From assembly GCF_900112605.1 (NCBI RefSeq), contig NZ_FOMJ01000001.1, forward strand, positions 520,577 through 584,576: a stretch of 64,000 nt of DNA, in the 5' to 3' direction. Positions 12,729-18,300 of the stretch are shown in pieces (positions within the stretch are counted from its first letter, which is position 1; the number at the start of each line of letters is the position of its first letter). The DNA comes from Thiohalospira halophila DSM 15071 (GTDB lineage Bacteria; Pseudomonadota; Gammaproteobacteria; Thiohalospirales; Thiohalospiraceae). The notes beneath the pieces were generated by a model. The model worked only from the letters and a program-made list of their open reading frames with translations, was not told the DNA's origin and made no database searches. Both the position numbers and the translations under genes were made by a program.

Positions 12729-13232
12729 TCAGGAGCCGGTCCTCGCCCCCAGCCGCTGGCGGATATCGTCCAGCAACCCTCGACTGGCCGCCTCGACCCG
12801 ATCCAGCACCAGCTGGAAACCATCACTGCCGCCGTAGTAGGGATCCGGTACCTCCTCGCCCTCGTGGCCGGGGGCGAAATCGAGGAACATCCGCAGCTTG
12901 TCGCGATGGTGCGCCGGAGCGATACGCTCCAGATTGGCGTAGTTCTCGTGGTCCATGGCGAGGATGTAGTCGAACTCCTCGAAGTCCACCGGCTCGGCCT
13001 TGCGAGCCGTCTGCCCGATGAGGTCATAGCCGCGCTGGCGCGCCGCCTCGGTGGCCCGGCGATCCGGGGCACTACCCACGTGGTAGGCATGAGTCCCGGC
13101 GGAATCGATCCGGACCCGGTCCACCAGCTCCGGGGCCTCCGCCTCCAGCAGACCGGTAAAGACGCCCTGGGCCGTAGGCGAGCGGCAAATGTTGCCCAGG
13201 CAGCAAAATAAAACCCCTAATTCTTTCTCCAT
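12729..13232 (-). CDS. Low-molecular-weight protein tyrosine phosphatase
   Basis: A 167-residue cytosolic phosphatase. The P-loop CCLGNICRSP (catalytic Cys11, Arg17) is at the N-terminus and the general acid lies in DPYYGG near residue 130, both diagnostic of the family. The start at 13232 places the P-loop where the family has it, with AAGGGG about eight bases upstream; the frame runs further upstream, but that part shows no similarity. Such enzymes often dephosphorylate bacterial tyrosine kinases in capsule export, but no Wzc-like kinase is nearby. It stands alone between rne and the accessory island, with 260 bases of unrecognised sequence separating it from the island. Confidence 0.92.
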   Translation of the reverse strand: MEKELGVLFCCLGNICRSPTAQGVFTGLLEAEAPELVDRVRIDSAGTHAYHVGSAPDRRATEAARQRGYDLIGQTARKAEPVDFEEFDYILAMDHENYANLERIAPAHHRDKLRMFLDFAPGHEGEEVPDPYYGGSDGFQLVLDRVEAASRGLLDDIRQRLGARTGS

Positions 13233-13492: not shown

Positions 13493-14254
13493 CTAATGAA
13501 CGAACTCCGGAGGCCGTCCGCCCTTCTGGGCCAGGACCGAGTAGAGCATTACATCAGCTGCTCGCGAGATGATGCTTTCTTCGCTCCGGGCCTTCACCGG
13601 GTCTTCGCGATCATCCAGAACCACCATTACTCGGCTATCCTCCAGGGCATCCACGACATCCATGATCTTGCGCAATTCGCCTCCGACCGCACGCCCATCC
13701 GGGCGGATAGCATCGACGAACCGGTCACCGAACTTTAGAGCAAACGGCTGCATCTTCCCGGAAGAGCCTTCTACTTCCGGCCCGTGAATGATGGGTTCAT
13801 TCGGTTTCCAGATACGGAGACCCGCCTCAACTTCGGCTACGAAGCGATTGACTCCATCATGGATCCCGTAGCGCTCTTCTTCCCACTCAGCCGCGATGGA
13901 TGCGAACTTCATGAATGCACCAACGCCGTCCTCAAGGCGCCCTGGAGGAAACTCCCCCAAGATCAACCCCGAAGCCAGAAGCTCCAGCCCCTCGTTTGCA
14001 GCCGCCTTCTTTAGACGCTGCCAGCTCTTCCGATCCTCCAGGGTGAGGCCACTGTTGTACATATGGGCAAGGATATCGCCGTTGTCCGTAACCCGGAACG
14101 AACCATCCCCGCTGGGGATGATATAGAAGCCAATGCACTCCCCGTCCCGGAAGACCAGCGGCGTTTCCACGGCGTAGGCCTCTCCCTGAGCCTGCACCAT
14201 CGGCTCAGGACGGCACTCGAAGCCCAGCGAAGAAAGGATGGTTTCGCAATTCAT
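13493..14254 (-). CDS. DUF1828-domain protein of the accessory island
   Basis: A 253-residue protein of unknown function. Residues 1-100 fit DUF1828: the pattern ETPLVFRDGECIGFYI followed by SFRVTDNGD and a Leu-rich helix. The C-terminal part (about 165-250, DRFVDAIRP... VMVVLDDRED) resembles the DUF1829-type partner domain often joined to it. These domains are scattered among mobile regions; no activity is established. The ATG overlaps the stop of the preceding 122-aa gene (TGATG), indicating coupling. Base composition is clearly less GC-rich than the flanking core genes. It is the last gene of the island operon. Confidence 0.7.
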   Translation of the reverse strand: MNCETILSSLGFECRPEPMVQAQGEAYAVETPLVFRDGECIGFYIIPSGDGSFRVTDNGDILAHMYNSGLTLEDRKSWQRLKKAAANEGLELLASGLILGEFPPGRLEDGVGAFMKFASIAAEWEEERYGIHDGVNRFVAEVEAGLRIWKPNEPIIHGPEVEGSSGKMQPFALKFGDRFVDAIRPDGRAVGGELRKIMDVVDALEDSRVMVVLDDREDPVKARSEESIISRAADVMLYSVLAQKGGRPPEFVH

Positions 14255-14622
14255 CAGAGAAGGTCCACTGGTCGATTCGTCATGGGATGCACGTACCTGA
14301 ATTCCGAGTCTAGCTCAATGTTGCACAGGTCAAGGAAGGCTCGAAAGCAGTTCTCCGGTTCACCACAGGCCAGCGATTCCGGCTTGATGTTTAGCTCTGT
14401 GGTACTCGCGATGCTGTCGATGTTGTCGACTACATCATGATCATTGACGTGATAATGGGGGCCATAGATGGCTTTTCCGTGCTGGCGGCTTGCCTTTTCC
14501 TCATGAGGGACCACCTCGATCTGGAAGATCCGGTGAAGATGGCCCATCCACAGGAAAAGAGTATAGCTCTCCTTGCAGGCATCTATCAGCTGCGGGATAC
14601 GGTACTGCAGCCTTACCTCCAA
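14254..14622 (-). CDS. Uncharacterised 122-aa HxH-motif protein
   Basis: I do not recognise this family with confidence. The frame runs from a TTG at 14622 to a stop that shares one base with the DUF1828 start. The visible features are a Leu/Trp-rich N-terminal third (YTLFLWMGHLHRIFQIEV), a central GPHYHVNDHDVVDN block with closely spaced His and Asp that could bind a metal, and an acidic C-terminus ending in TNRPVDLL. A later ATG (residue 26) is an alternative start. The GxHxH-like block recalls small partner proteins found beside DUF1828-type genes, but this is only an impression. Codons are less GC-rich than in the core genes. Confidence 0.55.
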   Translation of the reverse strand: MEVRLQYRIPQLIDACKESYTLFLWMGHLHRIFQIEVVPHEEKASRQHGKAIYGPHYHVNDHDVVDNIDSIASTTELNIKPESLACGEPENCFRAFLDLCNIELDSEFRYVHPMTNRPVDLL

Positions 14623-14648
14623 CCCCTGCTAGGCTACATCCTCTCGGT

Positions 14649-14656
14649 CAAAGACC
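14649..14656. repeat. Target-site duplication, left copy
   Basis: CAAAGACC, identical to the copy at 16063-16070 on the other side of the insertion sequence. Eight bases is the usual ISL3 duplication length. Confidence 0.85.
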
Positions 14657-16062
14657 GGCTCTATCCAGATCTGTGTGGGTAGCGGTATCCATGGCGTCAG
14701 GCGGCCCGGGCCCCAGATGTTGGGGTATGGGGTGCCGCCGGTAGTTGACTGAGCTTTGCCCCGACCAGGTAGGCCATGGTGATGAGGTTCCGGGTGGTTC
14801 GGTAACCCCGTGCCCGGGCCTTCGCGGCCTGGATGTGGGCATTGAGCCCTTCCACCCGGCCGTTGGTCAGGCGGCTGTCGAAGGCGTTGAGGATGCCGTC
14901 CCAGTGGGCCCGCACGGTCAGCGCCAGGCGCTTGAAGGGGGCCAGCCGGCTGCGCCGGGCCCAGCGATACCAGGCGGTGAGCAGCGATTCGGCCTCCTTA
15001 CGGCCCGACTGGCTGCGGTAGAAGTCCCGCAGCGCCTCCTTGAGGCGCCAGGCCCGGGCCGTCTCCAGCCGCCGCCGGGAGAGGTGGTGGAGCTGCGTGA
15101 TTCGGCCGAGCTTCTGCTGGCGCGGGTCCTGCAGCCAGGCCCAGCGGGTGTGCTTGAGGGCCGGCTCGCGCTTGACCTCCTGTCGACGGACCTCGTCCAC
15201 GGCGGTATTGGCCAACTGGACGACGTGGAAGGCATCGAAGGTGATAGCTGCCTGCGGCAAGTGGCGGCCGAGGCCGGCGATATAGGCCCGGCTCATGTCG
15301 GTACAGGCGGCGGTGACCTGCTCCGGCGCCCCGCCGTGGGCGCGCAGGTCGGCCACGAAGTGGCCGACCGTCTGCTGGTCCCGGCCCGGACAGGCGAAGA
15401 GCAATCGGCCGGTCTCGAGGTCATGGAACAACGTGATGTAGTGGTGGCCGCGCCGGGCGGCGGTCTCGTCGACGCCGATGGCGGTGACATCGGAATAGTC
15501 CTCGGCCGCCCGGGCGGTATCGACGTAGTGATGGAGGGTGCGCCAGACGGCGTCGTCGCCGAGGCCGACATGGCGGGCCACCGCCCGCACGGGCATCTGC
15601 TGGGCGAGGGCGACCACCATGGCCTCGAGCAATTGGCTGAAGCCGCTGCCGGGCCGAGCCCAGGGCACCGCCACCTGGCTGGTCCTGCCGCAGTGTTCAC
15701 AGCGCACCCGGGGGACATCGGCATGGATGTAGGCCCGGTGCTCGAAGAAGTGCAGGTGCTGCCAGGTCCGCTGCCGGGTGTCATGGACCGGCTGGTCGGC
15801 GGCGCCGCAGCTCGGACAGGCAAAGCGGCTGCCGGGGGCAAAGCCGACCTGGAAGTCGATGCGGCCGACCTCGGCATCGAAGGTCAGGTCCCGGACCTGC
15901 CAGGGTGCGGTCAGGCCCAGGGCGGCGGTGAACAGGGCATGCTCGCCGGACATGGCGGACTCCTTCGGGGCAGCAACACGGCACCCCAACATAATGGGGG
16001 TCACCCCCGCGGCGCTACCCGGCCTCGGCATGCCCGTCACCCACACAGATCACGAAGGGGCC
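14657..16062 (-). mobile_element. Complete ISL3-family insertion sequence (1406 bp)
   Basis: The element starts with GGC at both ends. Imperfect 24-bp terminal inverted repeats (14657-14680 and 16039-16062) share their inner 13 bases, GATCTGTGTGGGT, without mismatch. It is bounded by an 8-bp direct repeat, CAAAGACC. It holds one intact transposase gene reading leftward. Its GC content matches the chromosome and is higher than that of the island it interrupts. Intact ends, duplication and transposase indicate a fairly recent, possibly still active insertion. Confidence 0.9.
14697..15953 (-). CDS. ISL3-family transposase
   Basis: A 418-residue DDE transposase. The N-terminus holds a zinc-finger-like module (ACPSCG ... 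VRCEHCG), then a helix-turn-helix region. The catalytic core shows AIGVDETAARRGHHY (first Asp), TDMSRAYIAG and ITFDAFHVVQLAN (second Asp), and LTNGRVEGLNAHIQ with the final Glu near residue 385. The ATG at 15953 is preferred because GAAGGAG lies seven bases upstream; the frame is open further back to 16046. No frameshift is visible, so the enzyme is probably functional. The protein moves its own element by cut-and-paste or copy-paste; the mechanism of this family is not fully settled. Confidence 0.93.
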   Translation of the reverse strand: MSGEHALFTAALGLTAPWQVRDLTFDAEVGRIDFQVGFAPGSRFACPSCGAADQPVHDTRQRTWQHLHFFEHRAYIHADVPRVRCEHCGRTSQVAVPWARPGSGFSQLLEAMVVALAQQMPVRAVARHVGLGDDAVWRTLHHYVDTARAAEDYSDVTAIGVDETAARRGHHYITLFHDLETGRLLFACPGRDQQTVGHFVADLRAHGGAPEQVTAACTDMSRAYIAGLGRHLPQAAITFDAFHVVQLANTAVDEVRRQEVKREPALKHTRWAWLQDPRQQKLGRITQLHHLSRRRLETARAWRLKEALRDFYRSQSGRKEAESLLTAWYRWARRSRLAPFKRLALTVRAHWDGILNAFDSRLTNGRVEGLNAHIQAAKARARGYRTTRNLITMAYLVGAKLSQLPAAPHTPTSGARAA

Positions 16063-16070
16063 CAAAGACC
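16063..16070. repeat. Target-site duplication, right copy
   Basis: CAAAGACC, matching 14649-14656. Deleting the element plus one copy restores the interrupted 62-codon frame. Confidence 0.85.
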
Positions 16071-16203
16071 GGCTGAAGGATACACTGGCGATACGCACTG
16101 TTACTCGGCTTGTCTCGCCACTCCATGGGGCCATAGAGACGCTTCGGGAGCCGAATGTACTCCCAGCACTGTTCGGTCGTGATGGTGTTCAAGCTTCCAT
16201 CCT

Positions 16204-17046
16204 TTAGAGCTGGTCTATGGCCTGCCGCCACACGAACTCGGTCACCACCGGGATCTCGTACTCCATGGCCTTCTCTACCTTCCGGCCGAAGGTGCTGTAG
16301 GCCCAGTCGCGGCTGGCGATGTCCCCAACGACGACGAAGTCCACCTTCTTGCTGACGTTACCCGCCACTGCACCGCCCGCCTCCTTCGTCCGACGCTCGC
16401 AGTGGGACCGGGGGCCGCTGACGAACTGGCCCGTCAGGCACAGCCGGCTCCCGGAAACCGGGATCACCCCCTCCGTCACTTCCGGCTGCACCGGAAGCCC
16501 CCGGATGGCACCAGACTCTGCAGGGTTTCCTCCCACCAAGCGCTCCGCGACCCCCATGAGGTCCTGGCGCTCGAGCTCGCCGACGCAGCCAGCCCGCATG
16601 GCCTCCTCCACCCGATGACGGACTTCAGAAAGCGGCCAGTGGCTCCACTCCTCCGCACGGCGGGTCCAGAAGCGCAGCCGCTCCACCTCGTCATCCACCA
16701 GTGACTGGTCGGCCGTGATGCCTCGAAGTAGACCGATGAGTTCCGTGGTAATGGCATCCCGATTTTCGGACGCCCCTACCCGCCGCTCGCCTGCCTCCCG
16801 CATACGGGTGATGGCCTCGTCGATCTCCTGGAGTTCAGTCGAGGTGATCACCCCGTCGTGCAGGGCATCCTCCGTAACCTCCAGGAGCGCGGAGGCATCG
16901 GGATCGGACCGAAGGTAGGGGTTATCGCGGAGCCAGGTATCCAGCCAGAGAACCTCGTCATCCACTAGATAACCGTCCGCCTGGATGCCATCCAGGAATC
17001 CCATTAGCTCCCTCAGAGCCGCGTCGGTTCTGGATTCGGCGGGCAT
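16204..17046 (-). CDS. Duplicated TerB-like helical repeats fused to a C-terminal BRCT domain
   Basis: A 280-residue island protein. Two related helical segments form the N-terminal half: LMGFLDGIQADGYLVDDEVL (about residues 14-33) and LIGLLRGITADQSLVDDEVE (about 102-121). They share the pattern GxxADxxLVDDEV and recall the acidic metal-binding helices of TerB/DnaJ-like tellurite-resistance proteins. Residues 195-275 form a BRCT domain of the bacterial DNA-ligase type (LCLTGQF ... ERRTKEAGG ... DFVVVGD), which usually binds DNA ends or phosphoproteins. The start at 17046 has GGAGG five bases upstream; an ATG at 17067 is also possible. It is the first gene of the island operon. The function is unknown; a DNA-damage or defence role is only inferred. 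Confidence 0.65.
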   Translation of the reverse strand: MPAESRTDAALRELMGFLDGIQADGYLVDDEVLWLDTWLRDNPYLRSDPDASALLEVTEDALHDGVITSTELQEIDEAITRMREAGERRVGASENRDAITTELIGLLRGITADQSLVDDEVERLRFWTRRAEEWSHWPLSEVRHRVEEAMRAGCVGELERQDLMGVAERLVGGNPAESGAIRGLPVQPEVTEGVIPVSGSRLCLTGQFVSGPRSHCERRTKEAGGAVAGNVSKKVDFVVVGDIASRDWAYSTFGRKVEKAMEYEIPVVTEFVWRQAIDQL

Positions 17047-17155
17047 CATGACCTCCATGTCTTGCATAGACAGGCTGACTCTATCAGTCGAGCCTGATCA
17101 CTTGAATCGTCCCCGGGAACGAGTTCGACGCGGCTTCATCCCTGCCGCCGGTGGG

Positions 17156-17535: not shown

Positions 17536-18300
17536 CTACCCTCGACGCGCCAGGGCCGCCTCGGCCCGCGCCAGGTCGGCCTCGGTATCCACGCCGTGGC
17601 CCGGCGGCTCCAGGGCCTCGGCGACGTGGATCCGGTGGCCGTGATAGAGGACGCGCAGCTGCTCCAGCGCCTCGGCCTCCTCCAGCCGGCACTCCCCGTC
17701 CAGGGGATACTCCCGCAGAAAGCCGACACGGTAGGCATAGATCCCGACATGGCGGAGGAATTCACCGCGCTCCGGTAAGCGCCCGGCATCCTCGGCGAAG
17801 GCGTCGCGCTCCCAGGGGATGGGGGCCCGGCTGAAATAGAGCGCCCACCCCCGGGCATCGTGGACGACCTTGACCACGTGGGGGTCGTGGAGCTCTTCCG
17901 CCGAGCGGATCCGGGTGGCCAGGGTCGCCATCTCTCCCTCCGGGTGGGCGGCCAGGTCGGCGGCCACCTGGTGGATGATGGCCGGTGGCATCAGGGGCTC
18001 ATCCCCCTGGAGATTCACTACCACGTCGTCGTCGTCCCAGTCGGCCTCGCGTGCCAGGATGACCAGGCGCTCCGTCCCCGAACGCAGGCGCGCCGGCGTC
18101 ATCGCGGCGCGCCCGCCAAAGGCCTCCACCGTCCCCGCCACCCGTTCGTCATCGGTGGCCACGACGACCTCCGTCGCCCCGCTCTCGCTCGCCCGGTCCC
18201 AGACGTGCTGGACCAGGGGCCGACCGCCGAGATTGCGCAGCGGCTTGCCCGGCAGGCGGCTGGCATCATGGCGCGCCGGGATGACAACCCGGAATCTCAT
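17536..18300 (-). CDS. kdsB: 3-deoxy-manno-octulosonate cytidylyltransferase
   Basis: Activates Kdo with CTP to CMP-Kdo, the donor for the LPS inner core. At 254 residues it has the family length. The N-terminal [15 protein letters not shown] is the nucleotidyltransferase motif, and [10 protein letters not shown] holds the metal/CTP-binding Asp. The start overlaps the end of the Trm112-like gene (ATGA). It is the last gene of the comEC-to-kdsB operon, and its order after lpxK and the small Trm112 protein is the same as in Escherichia coli (lpxK-ycaR-kdsB). Confidence 0.96.

Follow-up and report, generated by a model that had tools for sequence, protein, structure and literature searches.

What is a short set of minus-strand genes of lowered GC content, with a BRCT protein at its head and a DUF1828 protein at its end, doing between a low-molecular-weight phosphatase gene (12729–13229) and kdsB (17536–18300) in the chromosome of Thiohalospira halophila DSM 15071? 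The set lies within a stretch of 64,000 nucleotides of contig NZ_FOMJ01000001.1, which was analysed as a whole and is referred to here as the window. An original prediction, made from the letters alone, had described an undescribed operon of four genes interrupted by an insertion sequence, a transferred and co-translated set that might be a defence, toxin–antitoxin or DNA-damage module. Answering the question requires a corrected gene model, a search for intact relatives, and a comparison of what lies beside each gene family elsewhere.

Gene content and state of the locus

The set is indeed co-directional on the minus strand, and runs from the BRCT gene through an interrupted partner gene to a DUF1828/DUF1829 gene (Table 1). 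Its GC content drops as predicted, with values of 0.647 for the BRCT gene, 0.526 for the open reading frame (ORF) of 122 residues in the partner gene, and 0.584 for the DUF1828 gene, against 0.70 for the window. The insertion sequence that had been noticed within the set is an ISL3-family element, which ends in 29-bp imperfect inverted repeats, is bordered by an 8-bp target duplication (CAAAGACC), and has no second full copy in the genome of 2.69 Mb.

Table 1. Features of the cassette, in window coordinates.
Feature	Position	Strand	Remarks
BRCT gene	16204–17067	−	287 aa; open
Partner gene, 5′ piece	16063–16192	−	TTG start at 16192; interrupted by the insertion; one copy of the 8-bp duplication lies within it (16063–16070)
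ISL3-family insertion sequence	14657–16062	−	inside the partner gene; NCBIfam transpos_ISL3, 4.4e-105
Transposase of the ISL3-family insertion	14697–16046	−	449 aa
8-bp target-site duplication CAAAGACC, left copy	14649–14656		from the sequence
In-frame TAG in the partner gene	14629–14631	−	from the sequence and the translation of the joined flanks
Partner gene, 3′ piece	14254–14648	−	holds the annotated 122-aa ORF (14254–14622) with the HxH motif YGPHYHV
DUF1828/DUF1829 gene	13493–14254	−	253 aa; intact

Two of the four proposed genes, of 62 codons and 122 residues, lie in the same frame, with a TAG codon and six bases between them. The 5′ piece (as a six-frame peptide, 4e-5) and the 122-aa ORF (1.6e-21) separately match the partner profile. 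Searched alone against PHROGs, the 122-aa ORF matches phrog_2017 (8e-12) over positions 53–148 of the 162 in the profile; read across the TAG, the partner matches over positions 3–148 (2.1e-18), of which the 5′ piece supplies 3–52. For this phrog_2017 search only, the pieces were joined with an X at the stop, and the sequence itself was left unrepaired. Because both pieces share one frame and match the same profile, they are a single phrog_2017 gene some 170 codons long, disrupted by both a nonsense codon and the insertion. An arrangement of four separate genes was ruled out on the same grounds, leaving three, the middle one broken twice.

The junctions change in part with this model. The 28-base overlap reported after the BRCT gene was a product of choosing an upstream GTG; the TTG start, which is preceded by AAAGGA, leaves 11 bases between the BRCT stop and the partner gene. 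The stop/start overlap of one base between the 122-aa ORF and the DUF1828 gene stands as described. A profile search of the 64-kb window produced no match to a CI repressor, and no second copy of either the DUF1828 gene or the partner was found elsewhere in the genome. With the partner broken by both insertion and stop and no other copy in the genome, the partner/DUF1828 pair appears to be dead here and, barring another copy, cannot work as in phages; the BRCT and DUF1828 frames remain open.

Intact relatives in phages

By profile matches that cover most of their length, all three families are phage families: the BRCT protein matches phrog_3989 (6.5e-64, residues 6–284), the DUF1828 protein matches phrog_1960 (4.7e-47, residues 1–241), and the partner belongs to phrog_2017. 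Pseudomonas phage phPA-G (VB_PaD_phPA-G, PP083311, Detrevirus) carries a CI repressor gene followed by BRCT, partner, and DUF1828 genes, in agreement with the window in all three families, their order, and their strand. Its partner gene (locus L008, 3486–4004) is unannotated in the public record and overlaps the DUF1828 gene by 4 bases. The window differs from phPA-G in having no CI gene, a longer BRCT protein of 287 residues (31% identity), and a broken partner. The CI-headed arrangement recurs in seven IMG/VR contigs, with three alleles of the pair (L078-type, L084, and L076) behind near-identical BRCT genes. On the strength of phPA-G and these contigs, the gene order of the window is read as an existing phage arrangement.

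Without BRCT, the pair also stands directly after CI, where lambda has rexAB, in Pseudomonas P7869, a Helicobacter prophage, Acinetobacter Acba_11, Escherichia ev207, and an Acinetobacter prophage-plasmid, with at most one ORF of 71–73 residues between CI and the pair. A co-directional, partner-sized ORF lies immediately 5′ of DUF1828 in 24 of 25 loci, chromosomal ones included, and usually has the HxH motif. Among 5426 complete E. coli genomes, 239 carry the ev207 pair at 99% identity or more, and in 237 of these the match spans at least 80% of the query of two genes.

Beyond Pseudomonas phages, BRCT and the DUF1828 pair mostly occur separately. Strong phrog_3989 matches occur in 15 of 369 gammaproteobacterial genomes, this genome included, and none of the 14 chromosome loci outside this genome has DUF1828 beside the match. 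The expected co-occurrence in the same order and free of the insertion holds for phPA-G and the seven contigs but fails at these 14 loci, because of which the link between BRCT and DUF1828 is taken to be a property of the slot that they occupy and no obligate pairing. A phrog_3989 tally of 324 of 369 genomes was rejected as a measure of prevalence, its matches being mostly LigA BRCT domains. Scans with the window's own BRCT and DUF1828 proteins as queries found no loci. The 122-aa ORF alone found no relatives among the genome contigs, IMG/VR, plasmids, or 397 other genomes of the phylum, attributable to its being a diverged half gene.

The DUF1828 protein and its partner

The DUF1828 protein passes the Pfam cut-off for DUF1828 (7e-8; 33.1 bits, cut-off 22) and falls short of that for DUF1829 (9e-4; 20.1 bits, cut-off 22.2). 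It also matches PDC-M24B of PADLOC (3.6e-9) in an N-terminal stretch only, residues 22–92. In the PADLOC candidate PDC-M24, component A is of DUF6978 type and component B is DUF1828, and PDC-S48 is a BRCT candidate that the BRCT protein of the window matches at 1.9e-16. The label “undescribed” thus needs qualifying, as both candidates are already catalogued; no published test of either was found. The window differs from PDC-M24 in its partner: phrog_2017 is distantly like DUF6978, but the 122-aa ORF matches no PADLOC profile, PDC-M24A included. The ev207 partner, which is homologous to that of the window, matches PDC-M24A weakly (4.8e-4). No literature was found on DUF1828 function, nor an experiment on any DUF1828/phrog_2017 pair.

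A PDB sequence search with the DUF1828 protein and the partner returned no credible match. The predicted model of the DUF1828 protein is of middling confidence (pLDDT 68, pTM 0.49); its residues 1–130 resemble class-I type-III secretion chaperones and DR_1245-like folds (Z up to 10.6), and residues 132–253 resemble PD-(D/E)XK nucleases (Z up to 8.5). The family has no conserved E-x-K, and the idea of an active PD-(D/E)XK nuclease was discarded on that account. The partner model reaches a pLDDT of 40. A chaperone-like half joined to a degenerate nuclease fold that lacks E-x-K favours, at the level of these models, a binding or sensing role for DUF1828, with the HxH partner as the putative effector.

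One validated system offers a partial parallel. HipAD (DS-6, DS-6B), which consists of a HipA kinase and a DUF3037-DUF1829 protein, is a HipA-type, toxin–antitoxin-like defence system through which DUF1829 has recently been tied to defence (PMC13092281). What it has in common with the window is a C-terminal domain of DUF1829 type in the product of the second gene, which in the window scores below the Pfam cut-off; however, none of the three window proteins has a Pfam match to HipA or DUF3037, and a profile comparison of the window's DUF1828 family with a DUF3037 protein from a metagenomic phage (L117) revealed no link.

The BRCT protein and the genes behind it

The BRCT protein comprises two helical ADG...E repeats of TerB-like appearance followed by a C-terminal BRCT domain of the DNA-ligase/RFC1 type. 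The description “TerB-like/BRCT” holds in its second half, as Pfam BRCT is matched at 1.2e-7 (32.2 bits, cut-off 21.3); for the first half, no Pfam TerB profile matches up to an E-value of 1, and the ADG...E motifs alone are conserved. The PDB relatives of the domain are the BRCT domains of RFC1 and LigA. In RFC1, a threonine, a glycine, and an arginine at matching positions contact a 5′-phosphorylated DNA end. The residues T212, G213, R220, and K263 of the window protein are kept in 28–30 of 30 homologues, and since the conserved T, G, and R correspond to these RFC1 residues, it is plausible that the protein binds or senses DNA ends through a T-G-R-K pocket.

Its closest relatives are full-length forms, such as a homologue at a genome locus (L161; 38% identity) and Orf2 of phage K139 (33.5%). 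Downstream of the former lies a minus-strand gene (L161, 2578–3228) for a protein of 216 residues that looks ADP-ribosyltransferase-like by eye and has no Pfam match. On a Hymenobacter plasmid (L014), genes for a TerB-C protein, an ATP-binding protein, and a DEAD/DEAH helicase are followed in one run by a phrog_3989-type BRCT gene.

A scan with phage BRCT as the query yielded 55 loci, 38 of which have CI directly upstream, although the IMG/VR contigs among them are partly near-duplicates and the 38 are hence not 38 independent events. In eight of the 55, a 122-residue BamE-like ORF lies behind the integrase, and in these integrase-proximal phages BRCT is away from CI. What follows BRCT is hypervariable: 117 ORFs fall into 65 clusters, chromosomal BRCT loci included. 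The suggestion that the neighbours be checked for defence genes proved fruitful, as the genes behind BRCT in relatives include BstA (L107, 6.7e-119), Abi_alpha (L075, 1.9e-49), the YafO toxin (L063), and glo of phage K139, which has an annotated phage-exclusion role and belongs to a lysogenic operon whose promoter and start site are annotated. A HipA_C-like protein (L122) and P63C proteins occur there too, and many cargo genes match no defence profile. A HipAD-like pair of HipA_2 kinase and DUF3037 protein follows BRCT in metagenomic phages (L117–L119). Two sister prophages from IMG/VR (L075 and L073) share a backbone of small regulator, 200-aa protein, BRCT, and integrase; Abi_alpha is present only in L075, and in L073 BRCT abuts the integrase.

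The position of this cargo has known counterparts. BstA, an experimentally proven abortive-infection protein, is encoded downstream of CI, a position that it shares with lambda rexAB (PMC8585504). The relatives of the window cassette likewise lie behind a repressor, and BstA itself occupies the same BRCT-headed slot in L107; however, the proteins are unrelated in sequence, and exclusion by the families of the window is only a candidate function. The K139 operon, cI-orf2(BRCT)-glo-int (NC_003313), is similar in that a full-length BRCT homologue heads an exclusion cargo gene, and differs in having glo in place of the DUF1828 pair. Literature on BRCT with prophages and superinfection yielded nothing on a BRCT-headed slot.

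Together these loci allow the tentative proposal, which we hold to be possible but short of probable, that temperate phages, among them those of Pseudomonas and Vibrio, share a hypervariable defence slot with the phrog_3989 BRCT gene as its constant head, the BRCT protein acting with whatever cargo comes after it. Such a slot would run from the repressor or integrase side through BRCT to interchangeable genes for abortive infection or exclusion (BstA, Abi_alpha, HipA pairs, YafO, glo, or DUF6978/DUF1828). In it, BRCT could, for instance, detect the replication of incoming phages by sensing DNA ends, or provide self-immunity.

The chromosomal site

Neither attachment sites nor a tRNA were seen at the edges of the cassette, and no relative from the family has kept the two flanking genes next to each other, so that none offered an empty site for comparison. 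In one relative from the family (G406; L187, 2484–4012), the homologous phosphatase gene has an AbiEii toxin/AbiEi antitoxin pair immediately upstream. Given this pair at the same spot, defence genes may use the position upstream of the phosphatase gene as a chromosomal landing site.

Origin and probable function of the cassette

The reading that best accommodates these observations, with a probability of roughly 0.7, is that the locus is a stranded and broken cargo cassette from the lysogenic operon of a temperate phage, likely one for prophage exclusion or abortive infection. On this best reading, the cassette moved to a chromosomal site, where its middle gene was inactivated, and is related to the PADLOC candidates PDC-M24 and PDC-S48. 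The earlier view of a transferred, co-translated set, with a defence or toxin–antitoxin role as its inferred function, fits the phage families, the adjacency to CI, and the abortive-infection genes in the slot.

The exclusion activity of the pair, the partner as effector, and the role of BRCT are what we infer for the intact operon, which would consist of a CI repressor, BRCT, a phrog_2017/DUF6978-type partner with HxH motif, and a DUF1828/DUF1829 protein. As the operon is headed by CI in the intact relatives, the cargo is probably expressed from the repressor transcript during prophage dormancy. The pair would most likely exclude other phages by a toxin–antitoxin-like or abortive-infection mechanism, in which the partner would be the effector and the DUF1828 protein would hold it and sense infection. 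BRCT would be the constant companion of the slot, its T-G-R-K pocket being suggestive of DNA-end binding.

A plain type II toxin–antitoxin addiction module, stabilising its prophage and leaving other phages unaffected, would also take the form of two small overlapping genes. DUF1829 is present in a HipA-partner protein (PMC13092281), and a partner knocked out beside an open DUF1828 frame is as expected if the partner were the toxin, albeit in one case only. Such a module is nevertheless unlikely, as the location behind CI and beside BRCT, in which BstA, Abi_alpha, and glo are found, speaks for exclusion.

Lower still is the likelihood of a lysogeny-control set, the proteins of which would tune CI or induction (BRCT, for instance, by sensing DNA damage) and be unrelated to other phages. 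The constant position of BRCT after CI, its conserved pocket, and the cI-BRCT-glo-int order of the K139 lysogenic operon would suit such a role. However, unrelated genes replace the DUF1828 pair behind the same BRCT, unlike what is expected of a core control gene, and BRCT lies away from CI in the eight integrase-proximal loci.

A host housekeeping or DNA-repair operon of non-phage origin, with BRCT for DNA ends and DUF1828 as a nuclease-like subunit, is very improbable. The resemblance of BRCT to ligase and RFC1 domains and the PD-(D/E)XK-like model of the C-terminal half of DUF1828 would agree with it, whereas none of the other 11 genomes of the family carries DUF1828, the partner is lacking in 397 further genomes of the phylum, the cassette is low in GC, the strongest family matches are phage families, and the catalytic E-x-K is not conserved. 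Equally remote is a chance alignment of a BRCT gene and a pair acquired separately: each does occur without the other in most loci, but the shared order and strand, the near-zero gaps, and the recurrence of the trio after CI in Pseudomonas phages, in three allelic forms, speak against it.

With these alternatives weighed, the stranded phage cassette is a candidate for a known kind of locus, repressor-linked exclusion cargo; its BRCT-headed form with a DUF1828 pair would be new, and is broken here.

Implications

The analysis corrects a wrong gene model and places three uncharacterised phage families in a genomic context for the first time. The DUF1828 pair exists intact in E. coli, which makes it directly usable for tests in laboratory strains. 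The BRCT-headed slot is a more interesting point than the broken cassette of the window. If the marker holds, the phrog_3989 BRCT gene would be a search handle for candidate defence systems, with temperate phages repeatedly exchanging the exclusion genes behind this single marker, and, should the slot be what it is proposed to be, mining the genes behind BRCT would yield new defence systems.
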